DNA from: a virus
Reading direction: 5' to 3' (one strand)
DNA length: 24,971 nt
IMG/VR virus record: IMGVR_UViG_3300021957_000283
Coordinates: 1-24,971 of that record
The notes under the pieces are model-generated. The model made no database searches, was not told the DNA's origin, and saw only the letters and a program-made list of their open reading frames with translations. Position 1 is the stretch's first letter, and the number at the start of each line of letters is the position of its first letter. Made by a program: the position numbers and the translations under genes. Positions 8,865 to 24,437 of the stretch are shown one piece after another.

Positions 8865-10438
8865 TGAGTGCTAGAAACTACGATGTAATTTTAACTGTTG
8901 CCGATGCTGGACCTTTTGTACCTGGTAACTCTATTGTAGGATCTGCCAGTGGGACCGTAGGTTTTATAGCTAATGTTAATGTAACTACTGATCAATTAAA
9001 AATTAAATTAAATAATGTACTGCAAGAATTTCATACTAATGAAACTATACAATCTAAATCAGCTGTGATAAGTAAAAATGCTAATGGAGCATTAAATACT
9101 CTTTCTGTACCGTTTCAGTCAAATGTATGGTCTAGTGAACAAATTACAGGTAGTACTACTATTTCTTCACAGGCTCCTAGCCCATTTATAGCAGCAAAAA
9201 ATGCATTTACACAAAATCCTATAGTAAGGTTATATGAAATATATTATCCAGGAGAGTGGTTTCCTACCACTCCTGAAGGTAATCCTACTAATGATGGAGA
9301 GGGTAGGGCTTGGCCCACTAATTTTCCTATAAAATTTGCAGATGTAGCAGGAGATTTAGTTTCTGATTTACAATATAATGTAACTTATGATGGAGATTCA
9401 TATATACCTTTTCCTGTAGATATATCTAGTATTAGTCAAGCAACTGATGGCCAAATTAATGAACTTACTTTAACAGTATTTAATGTAGACAATATTATAT
9501 CAGCAATAGTTGAAGATCCATATATTGTAGGTAATAATATTAGTAATTCTTGTGTAGCTAATGTTAATGGTATACCTTGTCACGGTATTGATCCTAGAAC
9601 TATTAACTTTACTCCTGCACAAGTAGGTAATGCTGGAGAAATTGCTTTTGATACCTTAACTAGAGCAAGAGCTAATAATTTACTTTATAGTGCTACTATA
9701 GAAGGAACCTATGGACAATCTAATGCCTCCTATACTAAAGATCAGACAGAACTTACTAATGGAACTTGGCAAGACTTAAAAACTGATTCTAGAGATCTAT
9801 CAGGGGCTGTAGTTAATATTAAAACTACTTTTGCTAATTTTTTAGATGTATGGCCCGAACATAGTTCCATTAAATATCTTACAGGAAATGTTATAGAAGT
9901 TTATAATGCTATGCCTTATAGAGTAGGAGACTCTGTAAAGTCCATAAAAGGATCTACTAATGCCTCTGTAGTAAGTATAGAAGAAAATAGATTTTTATTC
10001 TTATCAAATCCTTTAGAGTCAAATACTGCTGTAGGAGATGAAGTTTATATTATTAATGATGATGTAGATACAGAATCTTATATAGAAGATAGATTTAAAA
10101 TAGATCAATTAGAAGAATTAGGACCACAAGTAGCATCCTTTAATTTAGTTACTTGGTTGCAATATTTTAAACAAGTAACTCCCAGACGTAAATATTATAA
10201 AAATACCTGTCAATGGCAATACAAAGGTGAAGAGTGTCAATATCCTGGTCCTGCAGGTGGTACTATACCTGGTACTACTCTTACTGCTAATAATAATCCT
10301 ATTGGTGTTGATAACACAACTGCATCTGGACCTGAAGGTGATATATGTGGTAAGAATATATTAGCTTGTACTATTAGAAATAATTCTATACACTTTGGAG
10401 GCTTCCCTGCAACAGGACGTACAATTCCCAAACAATAA
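8864..10438 (+). CDS. Tail-tip protein, lambda gpL-like, with four-Cys Fe-S site
   Basis: A 524-residue protein with ATG at 8864 inside TAATG. The C-terminal part carries C449-x8-C458 (TCQWQYKGEECQYPG) and C495-x6-C502 (CGKNILACTIR), followed by HFGGFPATGR. This matches lambda gpL, whose tail-tip domain binds an iron-sulfur cluster through four cysteines and ends in a GGFP-like motif. The central part (VRLYEIYYPGEWFP, DSYIPFPVDISSIS, and ELTLTVFNVDN) also fits minor tail protein L. Two regions are extra relative to lambda gpL (232 residues): an N-terminal module (about 15-65, VPGNSIVGSASGTVGFI...FHTNETI) and a similar one near 345-400 (YRVGDSVKSIKGSTNASVVSI). Modules of this look are common in marine phage virion proteins. 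The gene end overlaps the radical SAM gene. Confidence 0.85.
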   Translation: MSARNYDVILTVADAGPFVPGNSIVGSASGTVGFIANVNVTTDQLKIKLNNVLQEFHTNETIQSKSAVISKNANGALNTLSVPFQSNVWSSEQITGSTTISSQAPSPFIAAKNAFTQNPIVRLYEIYYPGEWFPTTPEGNPTNDGEGRAWPTNFPIKFADVAGDLVSDLQYNVTYDGDSYIPFPVDISSISQATDGQINELTLTVFNVDNIISAIVEDPYIVGNNISNSCVANVNGIPCHGIDPRTINFTPAQVGNAGEIAFDTLTRARANNLLYSATIEGTYGQSNASYTKDQTELTNGTWQDLKTDSRDLSGAVVNIKTTFANFLDVWPEHSSIKYLTGNVIEVYNAMPYRVGDSVKSIKGSTNASVVSIEENRFLFLSNPLESNTAVGDEVYIINDDVDTESYIEDRFKIDQLEELGPQVASFNLVTWLQYFKQVTPRRKYYKNTCQWQYKGEECQYPGPAGGTIPGTTLTANNNPIGVDNTTASGPEGDICGKNILACTIRNNSIHFGGFPATGRTIPKQ

Positions 10439-11606
10439 AATTAAAGGTTGTATACTTCCTTGGATGCATATTTTTGGAGGATTAACTGGTAATTTTTATT
10501 TATGCTGTCATGCACAATTTCAAACAGATACTACTATAGTAGGAACCTATGATCAATCCTTAGGTGATATATGGAATAGTGCTCAATATAAAAAAACACG
10601 TTTAGATTTTTTGAAAAATAAAATACCTACAGAATGTATAAAAGCATGTTATGATAAAGAAAAACAAGGTAGTGGTAGTAACAGATTACAAGTAAATAAA
10701 CGATTTGCTAAAGATGTATATCTACAATCTCAAACTAATGAAGATGGAAGTTTAGATAATAAACCTACTTATCTAGATATTAGGTTTGGTAATCTGTGTA
10801 ACTTTAAATGTAGAATGTGTGGTCCTGATGCCTCTACTAGTTGGTATAAAGATACTTTAGAAACAGGTTGGTCTAAAACTATGGACTACTATACTGATAA
10901 TGAAAACTTTTGGGCAGATGTTCCACAATTTATTCCTGATCTAGAAGAAGTATATTTTGCAGGGGGTGAACCTTTTATACAAGAAGGTCACTATAAGATG
11001 CTTACATTACTTATAGAATCTGGTTATGCTAAAAATATACACCTAAGTTATAATACAAATTTAAGTTATCATAAATTTAAAAAATATAATCTTCCCGAAC
11101 TATGGGGTAACTTTAAAAAAGTGTCTTTATGGCCTAGTGTAGATGGCTATGGAAGTCGCGTAGAGTATTCTAGGAAGGGATTATCCTGGTCTAAATTTGA
11201 AAAACATGCTATTATGTTTAAAGACAATATAACTACTATAAGTGCAGTTATAAGTATATATAGTATAACATCTATGCCTGATTTAATACTATGGTGTAAA
11301 CGTAATAATTTTTATTTCTACGGTACAACTTTGATAGAGCCTATATATCAAAAAGTTACTTGCCTACCTAAAGAGTCTAAACAAGATGTAATACAACTTT
11401 ATAAAAAATTTACTACAGAGTATAAAGCACTTTTAAGTCTACATGATCTAGAACAAATTAAGAGCTGGCTATCTTTTATGGTTAGTACTGATGATTCTTA
11501 TTTACTACCTGAATTTAAAAAAGAAACTGAAAGACTAGATATACTACGTAAAGAATCCTTTACAGATACCTTTCCGGAGTTTTGCTCATGGTACAAAAAT
11601 ATTTAG
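10395..11606 (+). CDS. Radical SAM protein with N-terminal twitch/SPASM-like Fe-S domain
   Basis: About 400 residues. The radical SAM core has the C-x3-C-x2-C motif (C135, C139, C142 in LCNFKCRMC), which holds the [4Fe-4S] cluster that cleaves S-adenosylmethionine. It is followed by FAGGEPF (190-193, SAM binding) and WPSVDGYGSR (248-255). Before the core is an auxiliary cysteine module: C19 (CILPWMH), C37-C38 (GNFYLCCHA), then C81-x3-C85. This layout is that of 'twitch domain-containing radical SAM' proteins, thought to modify peptides; the substrate here is unknown. Start choice is uncertain. TTG at 10395 has no ribosome binding site. A GGAGG at 10397-10401 sits 5 bases before an in-frame CTG (10407). 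The first ATG (10464) would remove C19. The gene lies between gpL-like and gpK-like genes and overlaps both, so it is part of the tail-tip operon. Confidence 0.88.
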   Translation: MEASLQQDVQFPNNKIKGCILPWMHIFGGLTGNFYLCCHAQFQTDTTIVGTYDQSLGDIWNSAQYKKTRLDFLKNKIPTECIKACYDKEKQGSGSNRLQVNKRFAKDVYLQSQTNEDGSLDNKPTYLDIRFGNLCNFKCRMCGPDASTSWYKDTLETGWSKTMDYYTDNENFWADVPQFIPDLEEVYFAGGEPFIQEGHYKMLTLLIESGYAKNIHLSYNTNLSYHKFKKYNLPELWGNFKKVSLWPSVDGYGSRVEYSRKGLSWSKFEKHAIMFKDNITTISAVISIYSITSMPDLILWCKRNNFYFYGTTLIEPIYQKVTCLPKESKQDVIQLYKKFTTEYKALLSLHDLEQIKSWLSFMVSTDDSYLLPEFKKETERLDILRKESFTDTFPEFCSWYKNI

Positions 11607-11980
11607 GTTTATATCACTCATATGAAGATATAAATTGTATAACACTAATTAAAAATTTCTATTTTTTAGAATTGAATTTACAATTCTCTTTACCAGATTA
11701 CCCTGTTTCTAGACACTGGATTAAACAATTTACTACAACTAGTATAGATAGTTGGGCAGCTCAATGTGCTAAAAAAGTAAGTTTGACAAACGCTAAAGAT
11801 TATGATGTAATAGCATTTAAGTCAGAAAAAACAAATTTAATAATACATTTTGGTATGTACTTAATGCCTTCCAAAATGTTACACATCGAAGAAGGGGGAA
11901 TTTCGCGTGTGGAGACTCTATCAGATTATTGGATAGAAAGTATACATTCGATTTATAGACATGACAGCTTGGTATCATAA
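11588..11980 (+). CDS. NlpC/P60-like cell wall peptidase a (gpK C-terminal domain-like)
   Basis: 130 residues from ATG 11588, which has GGAG at 11576-11579, 8 bases upstream; a TTG at 11582 is less likely. The likely nucleophile is C17 in YEDINCITLIKNFY. A YDVIAF strand follows, then the His motif IIHFGMYL (H87), SKMLHIEEGGISRVE (H99) and an ending DYWIESIHSIYRH. This pattern (NC...D-hydrophobic...HxGxYL...LHxxxGxxSR...W...xRH) is close to the NlpC/P60 half of lambda tail protein K, a tail-tip peptidase thought to cut peptidoglycan peptides or process tip proteins. Catalytic assignments are from motif reading only. It overlaps the radical SAM gene by 19 bases and the next gene by 20 bases, so translation is probably coupled. 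Confidence 0.6.
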   Translation: MVQKYLGLYHSYEDINCITLIKNFYFLELNLQFSLPDYPVSRHWIKQFTTTSIDSWAAQCAKKVSLTNAKDYDVIAFKSEKTNLIIHFGMYLMPSKMLHIEEGGISRVETLSDYWIESIHSIYRHDSLVS

Positions 11981-12386
11981 ATACAAAGATTTTCCGTATT
12001 TACATTTAGGTAATAATACAGAAACAGGGATTGACTGCTTTAATCTCTGTAAATATGTATATCTACATGAATTAAATATAGACATTCCTTACACTACAGA
12101 TCATTTTTGTAAAATAGTAGACGAAGATTGGTATAGTAAAACTCAAGAAAGACTCTTTGAAATAAATGCAAATGAAAAGACTGGGTGGAGAAGAGTTAGA
12201 GAACCTAAACCTTATGATATAATAACTATGAGTCTAGGATCTACTAATGTTACAAATCATTGTGCATTGTATGTTGATAGGAATAAAATCTTACAAACTA
12301 TGATTAAGCATAAAAGCTGGGTCTCTATTTATGGAAATTACTATAAACAATATACTACGGGGGTGTATAGATGGAAAGATTTATAA
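11961..12386 (+). CDS. NlpC/P60-like cell wall peptidase b
   Basis: 141 residues with ATG at 11961 inside the end of the preceding gene. There is no clear ribosome binding site, so coupling is expected. The segment YLHLGNNTETGIDCFNLCKY puts a likely nucleophile at C26. PYDIITMSLG precedes a His motif TNHCALYVDRNKILQT (H100), and H117 could be a third catalytic residue. These fit the NlpC/P60 fold, and the N-terminal LGNNTETGIDC context is typical of phage tail peptidases. It is therefore a second peptidase of the same class, directly after the first. The sequences have diverged strongly outside the motifs, so this is an old duplication or two separate acquisitions. It overlaps the JAB gene by 16 bases. 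Confidence 0.65.
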   Translation: MTAWYHKYKDFPYLHLGNNTETGIDCFNLCKYVYLHELNIDIPYTTDHFCKIVDEDWYSKTQERLFEINANEKTGWRRVREPKPYDIITMSLGSTNVTNHCALYVDRNKILQTMIKHKSWVSIYGNYYKQYTTGVYRWKDL

Positions 12387-12742
12387 AATTAAAAGAAGAT
12401 ATGAATGCGCATTCAATGTTAGAGTACCCTAAAGAGTGCGTAGGTATCATAACTAAAGACTTTATTTATATTCCTTGTACAAACGTATCTCCCATGCCTA
12501 AACAAACTTTTATATTAGACCCTGCAGATTTAGTTAGAAATGACGAGAATATATGGGGCATATTTCATTCACATCCTGGAGACGAAAATCCAATACCCAG
12601 TAAAGAAGATAAAGTAAGTGCAGCTTTTCAGGAATATAAATTTTTAGTAGGATTTAATAATAAATTTTATATATACTGGCTAGACCACGATATAGACGCA
12701 CTCATATTTGATGAGTTTAAGGAAGAAAATCTTGTTAATTAA
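12371..12742 (+). CDS. JAB/MPN (JAMM) metallopeptidase, gpK N-terminal domain-like
   Basis: 123 residues from ATG 12371, preceded by GGGGG at 12359-12363. The zinc site of the JAMM family is readable: E22 in PKECVGII, then IFHSHPGDENPIPSKEDK with H66, H68, S77 and D80. The spacing between HSH and S is 8 residues, one more than the usual 7, which is a small oddity. In lambda gpK this domain is fused in front of an NlpC/P60 domain. Here it is a separate gene placed after two NlpC/P60-like genes. It probably acts with them at the tail tip, either in cell wall degradation or in maturation of the tip. It overlaps the gpI-like gene by about 32 bases. Confidence 0.85.
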   Translation: MERFIKLKEDMNAHSMLEYPKECVGIITKDFIYIPCTNVSPMPKQTFILDPADLVRNDENIWGIFHSHPGDENPIPSKEDKVSAAFQEYKFLVGFNNKFYIYWLDHDIDALIFDEFKEENLVN

Positions 12743-13475
12743 TCTTAAAATACATTCAGCTTATAATAAATTCTTTGATGAAAAAACATATACTTTTGAA
12801 GCTTATGTAGCTACTGATATTATATTATATCTTAAAGGTATACATCCTAAATTTGCTAAATATATGACTCAGATACTTTCTGGAGAATCTGAAGAGGCTT
12901 TTTCTCTACTTGATAGTAACTTAAAAGAAATATCTGAAGATATGTTAGAAGTTAAAAAATTTAAAGATGGAGATACTGTACACTTAGTCCCTAATATATC
13001 AGGTGGGGGCGGTAAACGTTTTAGAAATATGCTTTTATTTATGGCACTTGTTGTAGCAGCTCCTTATGCTATAGCTGCCCTGCAAACTTCTGCTGCAGTA
13101 GCATCTGCATCAGCTTCTATGGCAGGTACAACAGCAGTTACTACTGGTGGTGCTACTGTTGTTGCGGGTACTGCTAAAGCAGGTGTTACTGCTATGAGTG
13201 TTATGAAAACAATAGGACTTAACTTAGCTATATCAGCTATTACATCTATGATGGTTAAGTCTCCTGCAGCAAGATCCAGTAAACAAACAGATTCTACGGT
13301 AAGAGAAAATGGTATGTTTGGTGGTTTAACTAATAGTTCTACAAGTGGTACTCCTATTGCTTTAATATATGGTTATAATAGAGTTGGCGGTCAATTTTTA
13401 AGTGGCTATATATCTTCTACATCACATGGTAGCGGTGATCCTATTCAAGTAGGAAACCAGTTTGGGAGTGGGTAA
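12711..13475 (+). CDS. Tail assembly protein, lambda gpI-like
   Basis: About 254 residues. The best ATG is 12711 (MSLRKKILLINLKIHSAYNKFF). TTG codons at 12708 and 12732 are alternatives, the latter 7 bases after AAGGAA at 12719-12724. The N-terminal about 95 residues look like the beta-grasp-like domain of gpI (LKIHSAYNKFF, YVATDIILYLKGIHPKFAKYM, KFKDGDTVHLVPNISGGGG). An Ala/Ser/Thr/Gly-rich hydrophobic segment follows at about 105-170, as in lambda gpI. The C-terminal part ends in GTPIALIYGYNRVGGQFLSGYISS, resembling the strand found before gpJ in related modules. gpI takes part in tail-tip initiation with L, K and J. The stop shares one base with the gpJ start (TAATG). Confidence 0.8.
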   Translation: MSLRKKILLINLKIHSAYNKFFDEKTYTFEAYVATDIILYLKGIHPKFAKYMTQILSGESEEAFSLLDSNLKEISEDMLEVKKFKDGDTVHLVPNISGGGGKRFRNMLLFMALVVAAPYAIAALQTSAAVASASASMAGTTAVTTGGATVVAGTAKAGVTAMSVMKTIGLNLAISAITSMMVKSPAARSSKQTDSTVRENGMFGGLTNSSTSGTPIALIYGYNRVGGQFLSGYISSTSHGSGDPIQVGNQFGSG

Positions 13476-16400
13476 TGGCCTACAGAAATTTTATTAATTA
13501 TTCTAATACATTAGTACCACAAATACAAGGAGCAAAAGGCGGTAAGGGAGGTGGATCAGCACCTCGTGATCCTATAGAAGATCCACAAAGTTTATTTTCT
13601 ACTGATATTCTTTTTGTAGTAGTAGGATTAGGAGAAGGTCCTGTATATAGAATTAACTCTAATGGTCCTCAAGATATAGAATTAAGTGATGGATCAATTG
13701 ATGATCTTATTAATATAGATGGCGATGGACAAGAGTCTTTTTCTAAATTTAAAACTCTATCTACTACTGGAACAACTGTACAAGATAGATTAGAGGTATT
13801 TGGCGAAACAACTATTACTCCTCAAAATTTTGCATCACCAGTAGGATTAAAAAATGGTGGTGCGGGAGTTCCTGCTAATGGTGTAACTTTACAAGAAACT
13901 TCTTCTAAAGATTGGGATGCTCTAGAATTTGTTTTTCAAATAGGATCACTGCAAAAAATAACAAAAGATGGTGATGTACTAAGACATAGTATATCGGTAG
14001 CTATTAGAGTTTTTGATAGTACTGGTAGTACAGTAATTGCTTCTGGAAGTAGAAATATACATGGTAAAACAACTGCTGCTTTTAAGTTTACTGTAAAGAT
14101 TAACATACCCGAAGCTAGTAAAAGTGTAAATGGATATAAATTTACAGTAACAAAAACATCTGGAGATTCTACTAGTTCTGGTACAACTGATGATGTAAGT
14201 TTACTAGGTTGGAATGAGATTGAAAACTCTCCACAAGCATATCCTAGAACAGCACATATAGGTTTTGCTATGAAAGCCAGTAATGAGCATAATGGTATAC
14301 CTAGATTTACTTCTCTAGTAAAGGGGCTAGTACTTAGAGTGCCTTCTAACTATAATCAACCTACTTTAGCTAATGGAGAGATTGACTGGAGACATATAGA
14401 AGTTCCTGCTTCTGGTTCTACTAGTGCAGCGACTGCTGGTTACTATCTACAACAAACAGGAACATCTGTACAAACTAGTTCTACTATAAATTTATATAAA
14501 GGTACTTGGGATGGAAGTTTTGTTTACTCTTGGTCTCAAAATCCTGTTTGGATTATATATGACATCTTAACTAATAAAACTTATGGTTTAAGTATACCTG
14601 AAAAAAATATTGATAAATATAGATTTTATCAAATAGCACAATACTGTGATGCTTGTGATTTTACTACTGGTAATTTTTTAGGCGTAGATGGTATAGCTGA
14701 TGGTTCTTTTAGAAGTAAACCTAGAAATACTTTTACAAGTGTTAGAGAGAATCAACTTGGATTAGCACAAGGTACAAAAATTAAAGAAAGAAGATTTACT
14801 CTAGATATTACTATAGCAGATCAAGCTCAATCATTTGATACATTAAATGGTTTAGCTTCTTCTTTTAGAGGAGCATTAATATATGCTCACGGTAAAATTA
14901 CTCTAGCATGTGACCTACCTGATGAAACTCCTGTTATGGTGTTTAACGAAACTAACATAAAAGAAAGTAGTTTTATAATAGGAGGAAATAAAGAAAGCGA
15001 AATATTAACAGGAGTTGATGTTAGTTATGTAGACCCTACCAATCATTTTAAAAGAGAAACAGTACGTATTGATCAATTAGGTAGTAATGACGGTATTAGA
15101 AAAACAGAAATAGAAAATATTATGGCACTTGATCTTGCTGGAGTGACTAGAAGAAGTCAAGCACTCAGATTTGCTCAGTATCAAATAGCTGCTTCTAGAT
15201 ATTTAAAAAGAACAGCTAATTTTACTACAAGTGTAGATGCTTTACAATTAATTCCTGGAGACGTAATAGCTGTAGCTTTTCAAGCAAGTGGTATAGCTTA
15301 TGGTTTTGGAGGAAAAATAGAAAAAAATTCTGCTGTGGCTTCTTCTAATACTAACGTATATCTTGAACATTATACAGTGCCTTCTCTAGCCAGTACTGAT
15401 TTTACAGCTAATACAGGGGCATTAACTTTACGAGTAATTAAAGCAGCTAGTGATAGAATTGATTTATACTTAGTATCAAACACTGCTTTTGCTCTAAGTA
15501 CTACTGATAACGTAACTATAGGTAGTGATAGGGCTACAGTAAATCCTATTAAGAGATTTAATCCTATTACTAAAGTTTGGGATAGTTATACTGCGTTTAC
15601 TGCTAATAATGTACCCCAAAAAGGAGACCTATGGACTTTTGGAGAACTTGTTAAAGAAGATAATAATATATATGGCGCTAAAAGCGATAAACTTTTTAAA
15701 GTAACTCAAGTTGAACGAGAAATGGATACTAATGAAGTTAACATAGCTAGTGTAGAATATATTTCTAATGTATATGTAGACTCTGATACATTTATTGATT
15801 ATAAACCTACTGCGTACACAGATATACAATCTTCTCTTACGGTTCCTCCTGTTCCTGCTTTTACTTTACAAGCTAGTCCTAGACGAAGAGTAGATGGATC
15901 AGTTATTATAGATGCTTTACTAAGAACTAGTACAGAACGTGAAGGTTATGGTATTAGTTATGCAACAGAGTATGAACTTTCTAATCCTTTAGAAAGTACT
16001 TTATTAACAACTGCTAACTTATCTGGTCTTAATAATCAAAGTATAAGTGTAGAACATTCTAATGTATTAGTAGGCGAAATTAATCCTGCTACTTTATCAG
16101 GTAAGAATGGTTTTACTAGTGGTGTAGGAGAAATAAAATTATTATGTACTGATGTTAATGTTGTAGATACAGCTAGTGGAACTACTACTGGTAATATAGA
16201 ATTAACTGTACAAGGTTTTGGTCAAGTATTCGATGAAAATTTTCAATCTAATATACTAGATGCAAATGATGATAGTGTTTTTGGTACTTTAAAAGGTACG
16301 GATAATATTACTATACCTATCAATGAAAAAACTGAACAACAAAGCGCTATAAATTTTGTAGGTTTTGCTGGTATTGTTACAGCTCTTAGTCAACCTATTG

Positions 16401-19400
16401 TAGGATTTACTACTGCTACTGATAAAATAAAAATTGAAAATAAAACTACAGATAGTGTTAATCTTGTTAATAAAATTCCAGATGCTCCTTTTTATGTTAC
16501 TTTAAATCAACTTTTAGATTCTAGACACTATTCAAATAATAGTTTCTATGTATCTGGATCTACTCAAACATATGTAAAATCTGGAGAAATAAATGGTACA
16601 GATAGTATAACTATTGATTTACCTGTAAGACCTAGAGACGTAGCTTTTGTTAGATTCTTAGTAGATGGTATAGAAAAAAGCACAGGTCAGTTTACTCTAA
16701 ATCATACTAATGTACAAATGAATGCAAATATAGTATATGCAACTAGTGCCGAAGATTCTGCATTTAGAGCAGAAGTAGATGATTATAATGTGCCCATATT
16801 TGAAATAGGAGATAATGTACAATCTTTAGCATCTAATGTATTTAGTATTGCTACTAATAGTTATGACCCTGCTTCTCCTAAATATAATGCAGCTTTAACT
16901 GCTAATTATATATATAGAGTGCACACAGCTACCAAACCTACTTCTAATTTAGGCGGATTATTATTTGTAAATATATCTAGAGATCCTTTAGGATCTATAA
17001 GTAATGTAAGTGGTGGTACAGGTACTTTTGACTATGACACATCAGAATATCCTGGTAAGTTTCATTTAGCTAATAATAGAGTATATAGACTAGAAACAGG
17101 TTCAGAATTTGAATCAATATTTTTAACTAAAGATAATAAAATACCTGATTTACAACTAGGCACAACCTCAATTAGGGCTAGGAATAAAGCTAGAGGTGGT
17201 AGAACTAGTGCTTATAATACTAAATCTATTAATGTGGGTTCTATTCCTATACAAAAAGTACAGAATGGTGCTATTATAGAATCTTTGTATCGTGAACAAA
17301 CTGGTGGAGCTGCTGTTAGGGTAACTGTACAATTTGATCATATTACGGGTCAAGAAGTTACTGACTATGAAATATCTTATAAATTAGATAGTGTTGACGA
17401 TGTAGGTGTAGATGATGGAGGTACTGATTTAACCTCTTTTAACACGGTAAAAGTACCTGCTTCAGGTGTTGATGCTGATAATAAAATTAGATTTACTGTA
17501 AATGGTGTAAATAGAGGTTTAACTAGTGATACTAGAAATATTATTTTCAGAATAGTTCCTTTGAATAAAACTATAAGAGGTTTAGAAGCTACTTTAACTA
17601 AATCTATTATTGGTAAAACAGCTAAACCAGCAAATATATTTAATTTTACTGGTGGACAACAAACTGATCAAATTACTTTACTATGGTCTTATGTGCGTAC
17701 AGCAGACGGAGAATTAGCAGATATTGATCTTAAAGAAGTAGTAATAAAAAGATTACCAGGAACATTAACAAATAGTATAGATAATTTTGTTATAGCAGAT
17801 GATTTAGTAACAGTATCTGCAGGTACTGCTCGTAAGTCTATACCTATAGATACTTTTGGAGAATTTACTTACTTTGCAAGAACTAGAGATACTAGCGGTA
17901 ACTTTAGTGATGATGTAGTTTCAATTACTCTTGTTACTTCTCGACCTATTAGAAGTAGCGTGGTAGCTGCATTTAGTGAAGACAGTCCTTCTGTTAATTT
18001 TACTTCTATAACTAATACAAATGCAGGAGAAGACAATTTTCCTTCTTTTGCAGATTCTAATACGGGTGGTTTAGCTTTTAATAAGTCTGACTCACCATTT
18101 GATTCTAGTACTACAGATAATGCTAATGGTACTTCTACTGGTTGGTCTGCTATTTCTGCTGCTACTGACTTATTGGCTACAGGTACTGCTGAGTATATAA
18201 CCCAAATTAGAGATTTTGGATCAACAGTGACCGGTTCTATATTTGTGGATATCGAAGCTACTCAATCTGTGCAAACTAATTGGACAGATACTAAAGAGAC
18301 GTATATATCAGGTGTTACAGAAGTATCAGGTACTAGTGGTGTACTAAAAGAAGTTCAATTTGGTGGAATTGGTCATGTGTTAGGGTTTAGCAATACTGCT
18401 GTGATAAATCCAAGATTTGATTCAAATAATCAAACTATGATGAGCGGTGGTACTGATGGTAATGTTTTTGCTATCTGGAATGATGGTCAATATACTGGTA
18501 ATGTTATATCTATTACAGGAATTACAAAAGCTAGTCCTGCAGTTATAACTACTGATGGTGTTCATGGTATAGCTAATGGTGATAGAGTTATTATTCATGA
18601 TGTAAAGGGTATGACAGAGATAAATGATAGAGAACTTTATGTAAATGCTCCTTCTACAACTACTATACAACTATATACTGATACAGGTAGAACTGCAGCT
18701 CTTAATTCTAGTGGTTTTGGTACATATACTTCTTCTGGTGTAGTAGATGAAGGTGACTATTCAAATTCAAACTCCTATGCACTAATAGCGGGAGTCATAG
18801 ATGTTGATGAAATTAGACTGGGTGCTACTTATCATGCAAATGGAGATGCTACTGGCGGTAATGCTTTAGCTAATATAACAAGTGTGGCTTCTAACTATAA
18901 ATTAGTAAATTTAAAACAATATAATGATACAGGCTCTGGTGATACTTTTGCAGGTACATTAGGAGCTATTACAGCACAAACACAAATTAGAACTACTACT
19001 GCTGCTGATGCTCAGTTATTTCATGCAAATGGTAATGTAATTATTAGTCAGTTTGTAGGTGGTACTGTTAATGATGGTTATCAAACTTATCAAGCCGGAA
19101 CTAGAACATTCAGACAATTCCAGTTAAAATTTATCTTAAAAAATGATCAACCCGAAGAATTTGACTTTACAATTGATAAATTTAGGTATACTATAGAAAA
19201 GGATACAGTTACTTTTACAGATACTACTGCATATAATGCTACTACTAAAACTATAGATATTACTAGTGCAGGCTTCTTAAATAGGCCTGTTATAAGTTAC
19301 GCACTATTAGATGAAGACTCAAACAAGCCTCACATAGTGGTAACTACAGCTGCTTCAAATCAAGCAGTTAGTTATCAAGTATTTAAAAGTAGTGACGGAA

Positions 19401-19456
19401 GTGCAGGTTCTACCTCTGCAGGGATGTCTGTGATGATGACAGCAACAGGAGTTTAA
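13475..19456 (+). CDS. Central tail-tip / host specificity protein, lambda gpJ-like (very large)
   Basis: 1993 residues with ATG at 13475. The opening GAKGGKGGGSAPRDPIEDPQSLFSTDI, then VVVGLGEGPVYRI, is typical of gpJ-family tip proteins. Residues about 360-400 contain NPVWIIYDILTNKTYGLSIP, then YQIAQYCDACDF, the hallmark of the phage-tail_3 / gpJ central domain. FN3-like beta regions follow (about 1275-1500). Near 1675-1760 is a module of the ITGITKASPAVITTDGVHGIANGDRV / GMTEINDRELYV type, widespread in phage fibres. Lambda gpJ is 1132 residues, so this protein carries a long C-terminal extension where receptor binding is expected. gpJ trimers form the tail tip and contact the host receptor. 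Codons are strongly A/T-ending, with AGA for arginine. The next gene starts directly after the stop. Confidence 0.9.
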   Translation: MAYRNFINYSNTLVPQIQGAKGGKGGGSAPRDPIEDPQSLFSTDILFVVVGLGEGPVYRINSNGPQDIELSDGSIDDLINIDGDGQESFSKFKTLSTTGTTVQDRLEVFGETTITPQNFASPVGLKNGGAGVPANGVTLQETSSKDWDALEFVFQIGSLQKITKDGDVLRHSISVAIRVFDSTGSTVIASGSRNIHGKTTAAFKFTVKINIPEASKSVNGYKFTVTKTSGDSTSSGTTDDVSLLGWNEIENSPQAYPRTAHIGFAMKASNEHNGIPRFTSLVKGLVLRVPSNYNQPTLANGEIDWRHIEVPASGSTSAATAGYYLQQTGTSVQTSSTINLYKGTWDGSFVYSWSQNPVWIIYDILTNKTYGLSIPEKNIDKYRFYQIAQYCDACDFTTGNFLGVDGIADGSFRSKPRNTFTSVRENQLGLAQGTKIKERRFTLDITIADQAQSFDTLNGLASSFRGALIYAHGKITLACDLPDETPVMVFNETNIKESSFIIGGNKESEILTGVDVSYVDPTNHFKRETVRIDQLGSNDGIRKTEIENIMALDLAGVTRRSQALRFAQYQIAASRYLKRTANFTTSVDALQLIPGDVIAVAFQASGIAYGFGGKIEKNSAVASSNTNVYLEHYTVPSLASTDFTANTGALTLRVIKAASDRIDLYLVSNTAFALSTTDNVTIGSDRATVNPIKRFNPITKVWDSYTAFTANNVPQKGDLWTFGELVKEDNNIYGAKSDKLFKVTQVEREMDTNEVNIASVEYISNVYVDSDTFIDYKPTAYTDIQSSLTVPPVPAFTLQASPRRRVDGSVIIDALLRTSTEREGYGISYATEYELSNPLESTLLTTANLSGLNNQSISVEHSNVLVGEINPATLSGKNGFTSGVGEIKLLCTDVNVVDTASGTTTGNIELTVQGFGQVFDENFQSNILDANDDSVFGTLKGTDNITIPINEKTEQQSAINFVGFAGIVTALSQPIVGFTTATDKIKIENKTTDSVNLVNKIPDAPFYVTLNQLLDSRHYSNNSFYVSGSTQTYVKSGEINGTDSITIDLPVRPRDVAFVRFLVDGIEKSTGQFTLNHTNVQMNANIVYATSAEDSAFRAEVDDYNVPIFEIGDNVQSLASNVFSIATNSYDPASPKYNAALTANYIYRVHTATKPTSNLGGLLFVNISRDPLGSISNVSGGTGTFDYDTSEYPGKFHLANNRVYRLETGSEFESIFLTKDNKIPDLQLGTTSIRARNKARGGRTSAYNTKSINVGSIPIQKVQNGAIIESLYREQTGGAAVRVTVQFDHITGQEVTDYEISYKLDSVDDVGVDDGGTDLTSFNTVKVPASGVDADNKIRFTVNGVNRGLTSDTRNIIFRIVPLNKTIRGLEATLTKSIIGKTAKPANIFNFTGGQQTDQITLLWSYVRTADGELADIDLKEVVIKRLPGTLTNSIDNFVIADDLVTVSAGTARKSIPIDTFGEFTYFARTRDTSGNFSDDVVSITLVTSRPIRSSVVAAFSEDSPSVNFTSITNTNAGEDNFPSFADSNTGGLAFNKSDSPFDSSTTDNANGTSTGWSAISAATDLLATGTAEYITQIRDFGSTVTGSIFVDIEATQSVQTNWTDTKETYISGVTEVSGTSGVLKEVQFGGIGHVLGFSNTAVINPRFDSNNQTMMSGGTDGNVFAIWNDGQYTGNVISITGITKASPAVITTDGVHGIANGDRVIIHDVKGMTEINDRELYVNAPSTTTIQLYTDTGRTAALNSSGFGTYTSSGVVDEGDYSNSNSYALIAGVIDVDEIRLGATYHANGDATGGNALANITSVASNYKLVNLKQYNDTGSGDTFAGTLGAITAQTQIRTTTAADAQLFHANGNVIISQFVGGTVNDGYQTYQAGTRTFRQFQLKFILKNDQPEEFDFTIDKFRYTIEKDTVTFTDTTAYNATTKTIDITSAGFLNRPVISYALLDEDSNKPHIVVTTAASNQAVSYQVFKSSDGSAGSTSAGMSVMMTATGV

Positions 19457-20707
19457 ATGGCATTACAAGATTCAAATACGTATATAGAACCTACAGCAGG
19501 TACTTCACTGAATGCTTCTCGTACTCAGTTTAATAACTCTTTACGTTCATTATTAACTAATTTTAGAAGCTCAAGTCCCCCTGCTACAGTAAATATATCA
19601 GCATCTGGTGAGGGTATAAGTGTACCCGATGGTACTATTATGCATTTTGCTAATTCTAATGTTAATGCTTTATTCGTGTCTGATGCTGGTAATAAAAAGT
19701 CTTCTCCAATTGGTGGTAATTTCACTAGAAGTGGTATAGGTCATCGTAATGAGAATGGTATCACAGTAATGATGGCTAATGCTCCTTCTTATGAAATAGG
19801 CGAATTAGCTACTACTGTTACTGCAGGTGCTACCGCAGCTAATGCTAGATTATATCTTGTAACTGCTAATAATAGAACTGCTGCTGATTTTATTGATGTA
19901 GGCATACCTCCTACTAATGGATCTGTTGTAAATACTATGATTGCTATTAGTGGTGTTACTTCTGATAGAGTTAATTTAACTACAAGTGGTGTATCTACTA
20001 ATAATCTTACAGTAACTGCAAGTACTGCAGGTGGAGGTAAAAAATGGTTTCCAGAAGCTATAGGAGTAGGACACGCAGCTCTTAAAGTATCAAGTTTAGG
20101 TTCTTCGGACAATACAGCTATACTATTTAATTTTGGTAGTTCTAGTGCTAATGTATCTTTAGCACATCAACCAGGTGTCGCATCTACTAAAAATGGTTTA
20201 AATATTGTACAACAAGATGGTACTTACGCACCTATAGCAGCAAATGTTGTACTATCTTCTGCTATAACAGGGTCTGGTACTGCACCAGTACCTTTATTAC
20301 CGGCAGGAGTTATTGTAGCTATGGCAGGTACAGTACCTACTGGTTGGTTAGAATGTAATGGGCAAGCAGTTACTAGAACAACTTATGCTGCTTTATTTGC
20401 AGTAACAGGTACTGTCTATGGAGCAGGAAATGGTTCTACAACCTTTAATGTTCCTAATTTTGAAAGTAAAGTCTTAATAGGAGAATCTTCTACATTTTCT
20501 TTGGGACCAGGAGCTGGTGCTTTTGCCTCTGGAGGAACTATTACTACTGCTTCAGGCTCTGCTGCCTTAAGTTTAGCTACTACTTCTGTCGCTACTAGCG
20601 CTAAAGATAGTAGTACTGCCGCTGTGATATCTGGCGTTACTGCTGGTGGTCACACACATACAGCTGTGGTTCCACATGCTGTCGCACGTTATATGATAAA
20701 AACATAA
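19457..20707 (+). CDS. Tail fibre protein with phage tail-collar domain
   Basis: 416 residues with ATG at 19457 immediately after the gpJ stop. The N-terminal two-thirds is a Thr/Ser/Asn/Ala-rich beta-type shaft region. Residues about 282-345 form a phage Tail Collar domain (Pfam family of that name): GVIVAMAGTVPTGWLECNG, YAALFAVTGTVYGAGNGSTTF and NVPNFESKVLIG. The C terminus GGHTHTAVVPHAVARYMIKT contains HTH and a YMIKT ending, as in fibre tips that coordinate metal ions and bind receptors. It likely attaches to the gpJ tip and helps host recognition. The following gene starts 9 bases downstream after a GAGGG site. Confidence 0.87.
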   Translation: MALQDSNTYIEPTAGTSLNASRTQFNNSLRSLLTNFRSSSPPATVNISASGEGISVPDGTIMHFANSNVNALFVSDAGNKKSSPIGGNFTRSGIGHRNENGITVMMANAPSYEIGELATTVTAGATAANARLYLVTANNRTAADFIDVGIPPTNGSVVNTMIAISGVTSDRVNLTTSGVSTNNLTVTASTAGGGKKWFPEAIGVGHAALKVSSLGSSDNTAILFNFGSSSANVSLAHQPGVASTKNGLNIVQQDGTYAPIAANVVLSSAITGSGTAPVPLLPAGVIVAMAGTVPTGWLECNGQAVTRTTYAALFAVTGTVYGAGNGSTTFNVPNFESKVLIGESSTFSLGPGAGAFASGGTITTASGSAALSLATTSVATSAKDSSTAAVISGVTAGGHTHTAVVPHAVARYMIKT

Positions 20708-20716
20708 GAGGGAATA

Positions 20717-21286
20717 ATGGAATATATTAAAGTTCATATAGATGAGATGTTTCAAAAATTTGTATTTTTTGAATACAGACTTATAGAAGAGGATAAAAGT
20801 AATGATATGGTTAGCAGAGCTTTTCCTTTCGCTAAATTAATAGAAAAAGAACCAAAAATAGAAGAGCTAGTTGCAGGTACTATTATTGGTATTTATTATG
20901 AACAAAGAGGTAATAGTTACGTAAGTGAACGTCAATGGCTTGATAAAAGTGAAGAATTAGATCAAGATACTATTGACTATGTTAAACGACTTGCAATAAA
21001 AGTATGTGTAGACTTAACTTATGATGAAATACTAAAGCCTCCGACAATTGATGAACAAGTTGAAGACTTTATAAAAGAGTTTTTTGAAGAAGGTGATTCA
21101 GAACCTTTAGAGCAAAAGGACTTTTTAGCTGAGTTTTTTGAAGAATTATCAGATGATAATAAAGAAATAGTTAATGTACCTAATAAAAAAACTATATCTT
21201 CTCAGATAGAAGAAAAATTTAATAACACTACTTTACCGCAAAAGGACTTTTTAGCTGAGTTTTTTGAACAACTAGAAGATGAGTAG
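20717..21286 (+). CDS. Acidic protein with repeated KDFLAEFFE motif between fibre genes
   Basis: 189 residues with ATG at 20717. I do not recognise the family. The N-terminal about 110 residues look like a compact folded domain (EYIKVHIDEMFQKFVFFEYR, AGTIIGIYYEQRG, DYVKRLAIKVCVDLTYDEIL). The C-terminal about 75 residues are acidic and contain three copies of one motif: EDFIKEFFEE (116-125), QKDFLAEFFEEL (133-144) and QKDFLAEFFEQL (175-186), joined by low-complexity linkers. The motif is an amphipathic helix, so the tail may offer several copies of one binding site to a partner. Its position between two fibre genes suggests a fibre assembly chaperone or adaptor, or a modification substrate; all are inference. 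It has no signal peptide or membrane segment. Confidence 0.75.
   Translation: MEYIKVHIDEMFQKFVFFEYRLIEEDKSNDMVSRAFPFAKLIEKEPKIEELVAGTIIGIYYEQRGNSYVSERQWLDKSEELDQDTIDYVKRLAIKVCVDLTYDEILKPPTIDEQVEDFIKEFFEEGDSEPLEQKDFLAEFFEELSDDNKEIVNVPNKKTISSQIEEKFNNTTLPQKDFLAEFFEQLEDE
21112..21268 (+). repeat. Two exact 31-base direct repeats encoding QKDFLAEFFE
   Basis: Bases 21112-21142 and 21238-21268 are identical over 31 bases (start GCAAAAGGAC, end GTTTTTTGAA), with a period of 126 bases (42 codons). They encode the second and third copies of the acidic helix motif. A third, diverged copy lies just before, at about 21062-21091. Exact identity at third codon positions points to a recent duplication or gene conversion. 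Confidence 0.9.
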
Positions 21287-21299
21287 TTAAGGAGCGAAT

Positions 21300-22997
21300 A
21301 TGGCGCTTACGCGTGTAACATCTACAGTTTTAGAGTCTAATGCAGTTTCTGCAGAAAAAATGGCTAATGGTTCTATAGTAACAAGACTATATGGTATAAA
21401 GTCTATTGAGGCTAAGCATTTAGCCGCTAGTGCAAATGCTGCTAGTTTAACTACTAACGTAAATTTATTACAAAGTAATATTAATGTTGTTCATGCTAAT
21501 GTGGTAGCAGCACAAGCTAATATAATATCTGCCAATACTGCTGTATTTAATGCAGCTAAATCTAATGATTTTGTTACATTTACTGCTGCAGAATCACGTA
21601 TTAATGCTACTACTAATAATGTTGATACAGTTTCAGGTAATGTAACAATAGTTGAGAATAGAAGAGTAAATAATATTGCTGGTGCAGTATCCACTATAAC
21701 AACAGCAGATTTAACAGCTTCTAGAGCACTTGTATCTAGTGGTAGTGGTAAAGTAGCTATTTCAGATGTTACTAGTACAGAACTTGGTTACGTAGATGGC
21801 GTTACTAGTGCTATTCAAACTCAACTTAACGCAGGTGTTACAAATACTAATACTGTTCATGCTAATGTAGTAGCAGCAGAAGCTAATATTGCAGGAGTAC
21901 TTGCTGGTACTAAAAACTTTACTGGTGGAGTTACTATGGGTGATGATTTAATCATTCAAGGTAATTTAACAGTACTTGGTGATAGTGTTACAGCTAATAC
22001 TATTAATGCAGTTATACAAGATAGATTCTTATTCTTAGCTAATTCTGTATCAGGTGCTTCTGCTGCTGATGTAGGTATTCTTATGAATAGAGGTAACGAT
22101 GGTAATGCTGCTATCTACTATGATGAATCTACTTTTTCGTTTACTATGGCAGAGACAAGAGATCCTGACTCTAATGTTATTATTAGTCCTACAGGTTTAG
22201 CTAATTTAGTAGTAGGTACATTAAAATATAATGGAGCAGATTTAAATACTGCTATTACTGATAATAGATCTGGTGCTGTATCTACTGTTTATAAAGATAA
22301 TCTTACAGCTTCCCGTGCTTTAGCTTCTGATGGTAGTGGTAAGATTGCTATTTCAGATGTTACTAGTACAGAACTTGGTTATCTAGATGGCGTTACTAGT
22401 GCAATACAAACTCAGTTAACTGCTGGAGTAAGTAATGCTGCCGCTGTTGTTACTGAGGCCGTAGGTATAGAAGCTAGAAGAGCGGCAAATATAGCAGGTG
22501 CTGTATCTACTATTACTACTGGGAATCTTACTGCCTCAAGAGCTTTAGTATCCGATGGTAGCGGTAAAGTAGCTGCTTTAGCATCTGTTACCTCTACTGA
22601 ATTAGCTTTTTTAGATGCTACCAGTTCTATTCAGACACAACTAGATACTAAAGGAAGTACTGCAGGATTTCAAGCTAATGACTATATAACATTTCAAAGA
22701 CTAAATGCTAATATTAACATAGTCTCTTCTAATGTAGCATTAGGACTAAAACAACTTATAAATGTTGCAGCAAGTGCTACAGGAGAAGGAACAGGAAGTA
22801 ATAACTTTTTTGTAGCTACTCCTCCAGGAGCCAATCCTGTGGCTATTAATAATGTTGTAGTAACTCTTAATGGAATTACACAGACTAAAACAACTGATTA
22901 TATATATACTCCTGCATCTGGTAAAGTTACTTTTACTGACGCAGCTATTCCGTCAGGTTTGACTGTGCAAATTGTAACTCTTAATCCGCCAGCCTAA
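21300..22997 (+). CDS. Tail fibre / virion structural protein with ELGYLDGVTSAIQTQL repeats
   Basis: 565 residues with ATG at 21300 and a strong AAGGAG at 21288-21293. The N terminus (LTRVTSTVLESNAVSAEKMANGSI) is of a common marine phage fibre type. Three copies of a 55-residue unit occur at about 124-180, 321-378 and 395-455. Each has GAVSTI...LTASRAL, GSGKVA and STELGYLDGVTSAIQTQL-like parts. Between them (about 215-300) is a segment with LIIQGNLTVLGDSVTANTI, DRFLFLAN and GILMNRGNDG, seen in T4-like and cyanophage structural proteins. A C-terminal beta module (VVVTLNGITQTKTTDYIYTP, then VTFTDAAIPSGLTVQIV) resembles those at the N terminus of the distal tail protein at 7248. It probably forms a trimeric fibre or whisker. 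Its stop shares a base with the radical SAM start (TAATG), so the two are translated together. Confidence 0.83.
   Translation: MALTRVTSTVLESNAVSAEKMANGSIVTRLYGIKSIEAKHLAASANAASLTTNVNLLQSNINVVHANVVAAQANIISANTAVFNAAKSNDFVTFTAAESRINATTNNVDTVSGNVTIVENRRVNNIAGAVSTITTADLTASRALVSSGSGKVAISDVTSTELGYVDGVTSAIQTQLNAGVTNTNTVHANVVAAEANIAGVLAGTKNFTGGVTMGDDLIIQGNLTVLGDSVTANTINAVIQDRFLFLANSVSGASAADVGILMNRGNDGNAAIYYDESTFSFTMAETRDPDSNVIISPTGLANLVVGTLKYNGADLNTAITDNRSGAVSTVYKDNLTASRALASDGSGKIAISDVTSTELGYLDGVTSAIQTQLTAGVSNAAAVVTEAVGIEARRAANIAGAVSTITTGNLTASRALVSDGSGKVAALASVTSTELAFLDATSSIQTQLDTKGSTAGFQANDYITFQRLNANINIVSSNVALGLKQLINVAASATGEGTGSNNFFVATPPGANPVAINNVVVTLNGITQTKTTDYIYTPASGKVTFTDAAIPSGLTVQIVTLNPPA
21756..22381 (+). 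repeat. Pair of exact 35-base repeats inside the fibre gene
   Basis: Bases 21756-21790 and 22347-22381 are identical over 35 bases, and the match resumes after a few differences (TAGATGGCGTTACTAGTGC). They encode AISDVTSTELGY, the core of the fibre repeat unit. A third protein-level copy near 22590 has diverged in DNA. Such repeats can drive in-frame gain or loss of fibre units by recombination. Confidence 0.85.
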
Positions 22998-23986
22998 TGA
23001 AAAAATATAGACAACTAACAACAGAACTAACTTTCAGATGTAATGCTAAGTGTCCTGCTTGTCATAGAGTTAAACCTCTTCGTGTTAACTTAAATGATAA
23101 GAAATATACTATATCATTAAGTAAGTTTAAAGAACTATTTTATCCTGAGTTACTTAGAAACTTAGACTGGTTAGTTATTAATGGTAATTTTGGTGATTCT
23201 GTAATGAATAAACAGTTTCGTGAAATTATAACATACGTTAAAGAACATGATACAAGAATATTAATTCATACTAATGGAGGTATTCATGGTCATGATTATT
23301 GGACAGATGTAGGTAATATACTAACAAAACGTGATATAATTAATTTTGATATGGATGGTTTATCAGACACTCATTCAAAATACCGTATTAATACTAAATT
23401 TGAAGATGTATTTAGTAATGCTTGCTCGGTTATTAAAGCAGGTAATGCACAAGTGCATTGGAAATATATTGTTTTTGAACATAATAAACATCAAGTAGAA
23501 GAAGCTAGGAAAATGGCTGTAGATCATAGTTTTCATACTTTTTCTACTGTTAAAACTTCAAGAGATGTATTCGCACCTAAAACAGGTAATTTTATACATT
23601 CTAAAAAGAATAAAGAAAATATGGACAATGCTGAACGCGTTATTAAGTGTGTTTGGGATAATTGGGGTAAATGGTATATCTCTCCAGAAGGCCTAGTGTT
23701 TAGATGTTGTTGGACTGGTGGGCATTACTATGATGAACAACAATCTCGTTTTTATTACCCACCTAAATTCGAAAATTTATTTAATGGGCTTCATGTACCT
23801 TTAGAAAAGATTTTAAGTTATGAGTACTGGGCTAAGCTACAAAACTACTTAAAAGGCTATGATAGATCATTTAAACTTTGTAAGTCTCAGTGCGGTAAGA
23901 TAGTATCTTCTATTGAGAAAACAGAAGAAAACTTAGCAACAGGGCAACGAACATTTTTTGACTCAGATAATCAAATGGGAAACTAG
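22997..23986 (+). CDS. Radical SAM protein with C-terminal SPASM/twitch-like Fe-S domain
   Basis: 329 residues with ATG at 22997 in a TAATG junction with the fibre gene. The radical SAM motif is C15-x3-C19-x2-C22 (FRCNAKCPACHR). The usual GGE motif is replaced by NGNFGD (62-67). LIHTNGG (89-95) and FDMDGLSDTH (117-126) fit later strands of the SAM barrel. The C terminus has an auxiliary cluster motif: C218, then YISPEGLVFRCC (C237-C238), then C295-x3-C299. SPASM/twitch domains of this kind are known in enzymes that modify peptides or proteins. The substrate is unknown. Because it is translationally coupled to the fibre gene and lies inside the tail region, the fibre or another virion protein is a reasonable candidate. 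It is distinct in sequence from the first radical SAM protein of this window. Confidence 0.87.
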   Translation: MKKYRQLTTELTFRCNAKCPACHRVKPLRVNLNDKKYTISLSKFKELFYPELLRNLDWLVINGNFGDSVMNKQFREIITYVKEHDTRILIHTNGGIHGHDYWTDVGNILTKRDIINFDMDGLSDTHSKYRINTKFEDVFSNACSVIKAGNAQVHWKYIVFEHNKHQVEEARKMAVDHSFHTFSTVKTSRDVFAPKTGNFIHSKKNKENMDNAERVIKCVWDNWGKWYISPEGLVFRCCWTGGHYYDEQQSRFYYPPKFENLFNGLHVPLEKILSYEYWAKLQNYLKGYDRSFKLCKSQCGKIVSSIEKTEENLATGQRTFFDSDNQMGN

Positions 23987-24068: not shown

Positions 24069-24437
24069 ATGAATAAAGACGGACACACTGATGTTGCATC
24101 CTCTAAACGTATGATGCAAACTATTATTGAAGACGCCAAAGATATACTGAACGCTCTTCCTTCAGATGAAGAAGCTTCGTTACCTACTTGGTGGACTAAC
24201 AAATTAGCTGTTTCTTCTGCTTATATTAATTCTGCTAGAGATTATTTAGTTTATGGTTCTGATACTGGTGATACTCCTGTAACATCGACTTGTGATGATT
24301 GCGATATGGAAGATTGCCAATGTGATGAAATAGAAGAAGTTATAGAAGATATAATGGATGAGATGCAAGAAGTGACTGAAGTATTAGATGATGATATGAT
24401 GCCTCCTTCTTACAGATACATAACTAATGCCTCTTAA
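24069..24437 (+). CDS. Small phage protein with GHTDVxS / LPTWWTNK motif and Cys cluster
   Basis: 122 residues with ATG at 24069 after AAAGGA (24057-24062). The N-terminal about 62 residues (KDGHTDVASSKRMMQ, SLPTWWTNKLAVSSAYINSARDYLVY) belong, as I recall, to a short protein type common in marine phage structural regions; its role is unknown to me. A very acidic C-terminal half follows, with a cysteine group C75-x2-C78-x4-C83-x-C85 (TCDDCDMEDCQCDE) that could bind metal or an Fe-S cluster. A methionine- and glutamate-rich helix comes next. It overlaps the next gene by 11 bases. Other ideas, such as a partner or substrate of the upstream radical SAM enzyme, are speculative. Confidence 0.75.
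   Translation: MNKDGHTDVASSKRMMQTIIEDAKDILNALPSDEEASLPTWWTNKLAVSSAYINSARDYLVYGSDTGDTPVTSTCDDCDMEDCQCDEIEEVIEDIMDEMQEVTEVLDDDMMPPSYRYITNAS

Follow-up and report, generated by a model that had tools for sequence, protein, structure and literature searches.

Two radical SAM enzymes in the tail operon of a marine siphophage group, one belonging to a fibre cassette and one optional at the tail tip, are candidates for modifying tail proteins

We analysed a stretch of 24,971 nt, hereafter called the window, from an uncultured virus contig of about 25 kb (IMG/VR record IMGVR_UViG_3300021957_000283). Most of the tail genes of a siphophage of lambda type lie on it, and it encodes two radical S-adenosylmethionine (SAM) enzymes that we call rS1 and rS2 (Table 1). 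The sequences indicate that both carry a twitch (half-SPASM) auxiliary domain and that this domain lies in opposite order relative to the catalytic core in the two proteins. Among relatives, all of which are environmental fragments, rS2 forms one unit with the fibre-like gene fib2 and its partner u20, and rS1 is an optional gene at a single site of the tail tip. We tentatively propose that these are two separate enzymes, each of which would modify virion tail proteins encoded next to it.

Results

rS1 and rS2 share an auxiliary domain placed on opposite sides of the core

The cluster bound by the CxxxCxxC motif of radical SAM enzymes reduces SAM to give a 5'-deoxyadenosyl radical, which leads to hydrogen abstraction, and SPASM/twitch domains are recognized by the signature C-x(9-15)-G-x4-C. 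In rS1, C19, CC37-38 and C81-x3-C85 precede the core motif C135-x3-C139-x2-C142, which is followed by AGGEPF at residues 189-194. In rS2, the core motif C15-x3-C19-x2-C22 comes first and C218, CC237-238 and C295-x3-C299 come after it. Coordinates, reading frames and cysteine positions of both proteins were exactly those given in a previous sequence-only reading of this DNA. That reading had also noticed a G-x-F/V-hydrophobic-x-CC strand in both enzymes, and we found that this strand fits the SPASM/twitch signature, as C19-x12-G32-x4-C37 in rS1 and C218-x13-G232-x4-C237 in rS2, both proteins showing the longer auxiliary pattern C-x(9-15)-G-x4-C ... C-x(2-3)-C. All the named cysteines are invariant among close relatives. 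In a deep alignment of 88 rS1 sequences, the three core cysteines, G190-G191-E192, C37, C38, C81 and C85 are invariant and C19 and G32 are at least 90% conserved; in that of 37 rS2 sequences, the three core cysteines, C218, G232, C237, C238, C295 and C299 are all invariant.

rS1 matched the NCBIfam family NF033640 (N_Twi_rSAM) from end to end, with 356.9 bits for a cut-off of 170 (profile 5-398 of 398). Pfam SPASM was found on rS1 residues 19-85 (E 4e-7, model 1-66 of 67) and Radical_SAM at 130-227, and the twitch of BtrN aligned at the N-terminus, giving the order twitch first and core second. On rS2, Pfam SPASM covered residues 218-299 at the same model positions as in rS1, with a weak score (E 0.12); rS2 gave no match to NF033640 at E<=1, its auxiliary domain being C-terminal. 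When the two auxiliary regions were compared as profiles (rS1 10-110 and rS2 205-329), they aligned with a score of 42, a probability of 93% and an E value of 2.9e-7, the maximum score of 100 column-permuted controls being 19.4. The rS1 core aligned with the rS2 core with a probability of 97%, and the crossed pairs (core against auxiliary domain) gave nothing. The permutation claimed in the sequence-only reading is therefore borne out by NF033640, the BtrN alignment and the controlled profile comparison, which agree. Both proteins were also modelled with AlphaFold2 (AF2), with a mean predicted local distance difference test (pLDDT) score of 93.9 for rS1, residues 1-13 being of low confidence, and of 76.4 for rS2, whose twitch region is partly of low confidence. 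The sharing of the auxiliary domain was assessed by the comparison of profiles, and on the structural side the rS2 region stays partly uncertain.

The N-terminal position of the twitch is not new, since rS1 matches the curated family NF033640 end to end. SPASM/twitch domains are described as C-terminal extensions in a review (PMC9012708), and the N-terminal form is little discussed, yet it is a catalogued family. The full rS1 fold is common to many predicted viral proteins (template modelling score, TM, up to 0.84), and cultured phages gave distant rS1 matches only, the best, in two Vibrio phages, having 86% coverage and 23% identity. rS2 fits no specific NCBIfam family, its matches being far below cut-off. 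Viperin is not supported either, the matches reaching 18.6 bits for a cut-off of 180 (NF038283) and 17.9 for 450 (TIGR04278). The rS1 frame opens with a TTG at 10395 within gpL (ATG in most relatives), and a GGAGG overlaps the start (window 10370-10410). The true start may be slightly downstream, because this TTG lies inside gpL and residues 1-13 are of low confidence in the AF2 model.

rS2 belongs to a fibre cassette

To define the company of rS2, we looked at the loci long enough to hold it. rS2 was present in 72/72 loci holding u20 and at least 3.6 kb downstream, as well as in 51/51 loci where fib1 is followed by over 5.5 kb of sequence, and a single fibre gene lay between u20 and rS2 in 121 of the 124 loci. 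In three records (G265, G274 and G278), u20, fib2 and rS2 were all missing, unrelated genes followed fib1 (or gpJ), and rS1 was missing too. Because rS2 is co-present and co-absent with u20 and fib2, u20-fib2-rS2 behaves as one unit; records without the cassette number only three, and genes found together in members of a single phage group do not count as independent cases.

In u20 and its relatives, the N-terminal region varies, whereas the acidic tail bears two to three copies of a nearly unchanging [DS]F[IL]x[EDN]FF motif, which is essentially confined to u20 in the 3.8 Mb searched. This motif could be a repeated target or the repeated binding motif of a fibre chaperone. With repeated conserved motifs in its C-terminal tail and the constant company of rS2, u20 is at most a candidate for a substrate akin to a precursor peptide. 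The motif was rejected as a general signature of radical SAM substrates, being absent near homologues outside this phage group. In fib2, an N-terminal MALTR(V/I)T...SNAxS segment recurs in many diverse members. The downstream gene u24 was considered as a Cys-rich substrate and rejected, its CxxCxxxxCxC motif being unconserved among relatives. In some cases (e.g. L092, L187 and L211), an HTDVAS...WWTNKLA domain of the u24 type is fused with another domain of about 170 aa.

Both enzyme genes overlap tail genes and are under constraint

Among 88 relatives, 72 share an overlap of 44 nt between gpL and rS1; rS1 and K1 overlap by 25 nt in 72 of 84 loci, and the fib2 stop and rS2 start by 1 nt (TAATG) in 74 of 90 loci. 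These overlaps persist in relatives whose identity has fallen to about 40% and are consistent with translational coupling. Median ratios of nonsynonymous to synonymous substitution rates (dN/dS), computed against relatives with measurable dS, were 0.094 for rS2, 0.18 for gpL and u20, 0.19 for rS1, 0.22 for gpJ and 0.34 for fib2, making rS2 the most constrained gene among those measured and far more so than the adjoining fib2. Low dN/dS and shared overlaps thus indicate that both enzymes are under purifying selection and are probably translated along with the tail proteins. Since rS2 is far more constrained than fib2, a target in fib2 would be a conserved element such as the MALTR(V/I)T...SNAxS segment.

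rS1 is an old and optional gene of the tail tip

The first searches were anchored on rS1 or rS2 and cannot show absence. In these, both genes were always at fixed places, gpL-rS1-K1 and fib2-rS2-u24; records found via rS2 also held rS1 in 21 of 26 cases, the remaining five beginning downstream of the rS1 site. The resulting figure of 134/134 tail loci carrying rS1 was rejected as a sampling artefact, because the loci had mostly been gathered by enzyme-anchored or close-relative searches. It was overturned by a rescan anchored on the JAB/JAMM protein of divergent members, after which all loci taken together comprised 136 tail modules with rS1 and 25 sister modules without it. Of 15 junctions lacking rS1 that were examined, 12 have K1 starting a few bases before gpL ends, and three have the next tail gene within 51 bases of gpL. 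On a tree of the gpL C-terminus, JAMM and K2, rS1 presence changes six times, at least four of these changes being forced by supported branches. Tail-operon rS1 genes group in a single clade (100/99), which includes two members living without tail genes. From the rS1-minus modules, the changes on the tree and the single clade, rS1 is therefore an old, optional cassette at a single site.

One of the two members without tail genes is on a 43-kb contig (L147). The other (L287, 7878-9065) is a solo gene of 50% identity on a bacterial-looking contig from a metagenome-assembled genome (MAG) of Neomarinimicrobiota, where it adjoins apparent lipoprotein genes. Neomarinimicrobiota was rejected as the host: 1 of 199 of its genomes had an rS1-clade gene, which was probably acquired in an isolated transfer or binned wrongly.

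Conversely, rS2 without rS1 was found in G268 (61.5 kb), G270 (70 kb), G277, G280 and G294, by searches of whole records on which the gpL-K1 junction is present. The idea of one two-enzyme system, suggested in the sequence-only reading, fails because 25 modules are without rS1 and five rS1-less records keep rS2, so that the two genes are not always together. Its assignment of both genes to the tail module holds, as they are fixed within the lambda-type tail operon of relatives, with conserved gene overlaps. Frequent occurrence far from tail genes, which it had named as a sign against its proposal, applies to the wider N_Twi family and not to the orthologous clade, with two such members. Genes of this wider family are arrayed in islands of glycan type on marine phage genomes, and they also occur on bacterial MAG contigs. 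We observed up to eight N_Twi-type genes per array on marine phage contigs (L155-L186 and L288-L290; e.g. L166, L163 and L171), next to genes for glycosyltransferase 7 (GT7), UDP-glucose dehydrogenase, carbamoyltransferase and Fe-S assembly; epimerase genes, too, accompany distant homologues in such islands. Some array contigs have an rS2-like gene beside an N_Twi gene, and one array adjoins a tail sheath gene.

The tail operon and its relatives

The genes of the window run in the order probable major tail protein, chaperone, probable tape measure, M7, gpL, rS1, K1, K2, JAB, gpI, gpJ, fib1, u20, fib2, rS2 and u24, with gpL, NlpC/P60, JAB, gpI and gpJ in the order of a lambda-type tail-tip operon. 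The four cysteines of gpL are spaced by 9 and 7 residues like Cys173/182 and Cys205/212 of lambda gpL, which exposes on its surface a [4Fe-4S] cluster whose role is unknown (PMC10721106). Phages without rS1 retain the C-terminal Cys pair in their gpL, and rS1 is therefore dispensable for keeping this site. In the region of the split gpK (window 11582-12742), K1 is absent along with rS1 in L430, L431 and L433, and neither K1 nor K2 was detected in L460. A related 54-kb record carries, besides the tail operon, a family A DNA polymerase, ribonucleotide reductase, ThyX, PhoH and further genes of kinds typical of lytic phages. The same lambda-type tail operon was seen in a 117-kb record (G283, L500) that also holds a further N_Twi gene of divergent sequence, an apparent aspartate carbamoyltransferase and genes that look like those of T4-type replication. 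One siphophage record of the group (G020; L332 and L400) carries a TctA gene (tripartite tricarboxylate transporter) at 1664-2914 (E 8e-87), with no match among 11 related records.

Table 1. Features of the window
Feature	Position	Strand	Evidence or remark
Probable major tail protein	169-1467		No match found in this analysis
Tail assembly chaperone	Upstream of tape measure		phrog_313
Probable tape measure	2401-7233		
M7, DUF2460/LamG protein	Between tape measure and gpL		
gpL-like tail-tip hub protein, C-terminal Fe-S domain	8864..10438	+	PF05100 Phage_tail_L, E 5e-24
rS1, radical SAM enzyme, 403 aa, between gpL and K1	10395..11606	+	NF033640 N_Twi_rSAM
rS1 twitch/SPASM domain, residues 19-85	10449..10649	+	C19, G32, C37, C38, C81, C85
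rS1 radical-SAM motif CNFKCRMC (C135-C142)	10797..10820	+	PF04055, E 2.8e-8
K1, NlpC/P60-like protein	11582..11980	+	PF00877, E 2.8e-5; abuts gpL in most rS1-minus relatives
K2, second NlpC/P60-like protein	11961..12386	+	PF00877, E 1e-10
JAB/JAMM protein, counterpart of one half of split gpK	12371..12742	+	PF14464, E 4e-10
gpI-like tail protein	12708..13475	+	phrog_32, E 8.5e-17
gpJ-like central tail fibre / host-specificity protein, 1993 aa	13475..19456	+	phrog_31, E 1e-96
fib1, collar-domain tail fibre	19457..20707	+	PF07484, E 2.5e-19
u20, always found with rS2	20717..21286	+	Acidic C-terminal tail, repeated [DS]F[IL]x[EDN]FF
u20 [DS]F[IL]x[EDN]FF motif copies	21065-21085, 21119-21139, 21245-21265	+	
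fib2, variable fibre-like protein	21300..22997	+	phrog_16122 virion structural protein, E 1.3e-17
rS2, radical SAM enzyme, 329 aa, last gene of fibre cassette	22997..23986	+	phrog_21308, E 3.7e-30
rS2 radical-SAM motif CNAKCPAC (C15-C22)	23039..23062	+	C15, C19, C22 invariant in 37 sequences
rS2 twitch-like domain, residues 218-299	23648..23893	+	C218, G232, C237, C238, C295, C299
u24, small conserved protein HTDVASxRR...WWTNKLA, downstream of rS2	24069..24437	+	

Discussion

The explanation that we prefer, although at somewhat less than even chances, is that rS1 and rS2 are separate radical SAM enzymes that modify neighbour-encoded virion tail proteins post-translationally. We favour protein substrates because of the position of the genes, their coupling, the fibre cassette, best fold matches that include the SPASM enzymes CteB, SkfB, SuiB and anSME, which modify peptides or proteins, and the result that 12 long records (33-72 kb) from this phage group showed no glycosyltransferase of the GT2 or GT7 type, making a phage-encoded glycan route less likely here. 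Both enzymes would probably be expressed late. The [4Fe-4S] cluster at C15/C19/C22 of rS2 would cleave SAM, and hydrogen would be abstracted from the substrate, most likely a conserved element of fib2 or of its partner u20. The twitch cluster would then serve electron transfer or substrate binding, as auxiliary twitch/SPASM clusters take an electron or bind substrate (PMC9012708). rS1 would be an optional enzyme coupled to gpL and K1, with the same chemistry at the tail tip. Catalytic activity, late expression, protein substrates and target residues are all things that we infer. A bolder form of the proposal, which we regard as rather improbable, is that rS2, dedicated to one fibre cassette, installs a radical-derived modification (e.g. 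a cross-link, an epimerisation or a thioether) on the fibre or on the DF[IL]xEFF motifs of u20, an undescribed fibre maturation of which rS1 would be the independent, optional tail-tip counterpart.

Several observations weigh against protein modification. No substrate was found. When rS1-plus and rS1-minus tail tips were contrasted in search of a substrate residue, none convincingly tracked rS1 presence in M7, gpL, K1, K2, JAMM, gpI, gpJ or the tape measure. Maturases of ribosomally synthesized and post-translationally modified peptides (RiPPs) generally carry a RiPP recognition element (RRE) and act on a precursor peptide, and no RRE/PqqD was found in rS1 or rS2 at E<=1 in Pfam. Outside this phage group, rS1/rS2 homologues lack the u20 motif nearby and, when distant, sit among sugar genes; the rS1 clade has its two members L147 and L287 outside tail operons; and the closest PDB sequence matches include the sugar-type enzymes BtrN and BlsE. 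Finally, linkage inside a single phage lineage gives only weak grounds for naming a substrate.

A sugar substrate is a serious rival, to which we give appreciably less credence than to protein modification. The enzymes would oxidise, decarboxylate or otherwise alter a sugar of the host lipopolysaccharide, a nucleotide sugar or a fibre-borne glycan, thereby changing adsorption or superinfection. The rS1 twitch matches BtrN best and the rS2 profile matches BlsE best, both acting on sugar-like substrates; distant N_Twi and rS2-like genes of other marine phages accompany the sugar genes described above; and radical SAM cassettes share the host-recognition cluster of pelagimyophages with glycosyltransferases (PMC7029224). 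However, no GT2 or GT7 partner was found in the 12 long siphophage records, UDP-glucose dehydrogenase matches are weak and sporadic, and the enzymes are placed by tail proteins with conserved overlaps, rS2 being tied to one particular fibre.

It is unlikely, although less so than a structural role, that the two are auxiliary host-takeover or metabolic genes riding in a late operon, their tail linkage being a single old insertion devoid of functional meaning. The optional nature of rS1, gained or lost repeatedly, and the single clade of tail rS1 genes with its two members now without tail genes fit such passengers, but rS2 is never apart from u20-fib2 and is missing when those are missing, and the overlaps are kept across relatives that have diverged widely. 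That rS1 and rS2 serve in the virion or its assembly as Fe-S proteins with no enzymatic activity, acting as scaffolds or redox sensors beside the Fe-S hub gpL, seems very improbable. Lambda gpL itself carries a surface [4Fe-4S] cluster (PMC10721106) and rS1 is coupled to gpL; yet CxxxCxxC in both proteins and GGE in rS1 are conserved as expected of active enzymes, and in many phages gpL retains the C-terminal Cys pair with no rS1 at all.

Altogether, a fibre-cassette enzyme and an optional tail-tip enzyme suggest a credible case for radical chemistry on phage tails. Should rS2 indeed modify a fibre protein, radical enzymology would extend to the machinery of phage adsorption, and marine metaproteomes and cryogenic electron microscopy maps would have to be re-read for modified residues. 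We propose rS2 with fib2/u20 as an enzyme-substrate pairing, and rS1, whose empty site is precisely defined, offers a natural plus/minus series. As a caution, radical SAM genes that are classed as metabolic add-ons in phages may be genes for structural maturation. For enzymology, two marine twitch-enzyme clades of unassigned function are added, one with a permuted auxiliary domain.

Comparison with known systems

The literature searched contained no report of virion modification by a phage radical SAM enzyme. rS1 resembles the members of NF033640, a model without a functional name, in its end-to-end match and its order of twitch and core; unlike the family at large, the rS1 described here is one clade found in siphophage tail operons between gpL and K1. 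The N-terminus of rS1 aligns with the C-terminal twitch of the radical SAM dehydrogenase BtrN (PDB 4M7T; i-E 4.9e-5) over the Cys-Gly-Cys spacing, a GN...IW...R stretch and the final Cys pair, whereas the twitch of BtrN is C-terminal and its substrate an aminocyclitol (PMC9012708). The best profile (E 4.8e-8) and fold match (Foldseek 6.5e-10) of rS2 is BlsE, a cytosylglucuronate decarboxylase (PDB 7VOB), but the sequence alignment covers the core only (rS2 profile 6-195), and BlsE acts on a nucleoside-sugar and is not a phage enzyme. The RiPP maturases CteB, SkfB and SuiB and the sulfatase maturase anSME likewise combine a core with a SPASM-type domain and are top Foldseek matches.

As in the pelagimyophage clusters, where marine phage radical SAM genes lie beside tail fibres and glycosyltransferases (PMC7029224), the genes studied here lie in a region with tail fibres, and the N_Twi arrays next to sheath and glycan genes resemble these clusters too. 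The pelagimyophage genes are, however, variable cassettes of large T4-like phages, whereas rS2 occurs singly and at a fixed place in the fibre cassette of a siphophage, and no GT2 or GT7 gene was found here. Finally, the tail tip has the gene order of the lambda module gpL-gpK-gpI-gpJ and keeps the Fe-S cysteine spacing of gpL, but the gpK of lambda is divided here among three proteins (K1, K2 and JAMM), and between gpL and K1 there may be an rS1.

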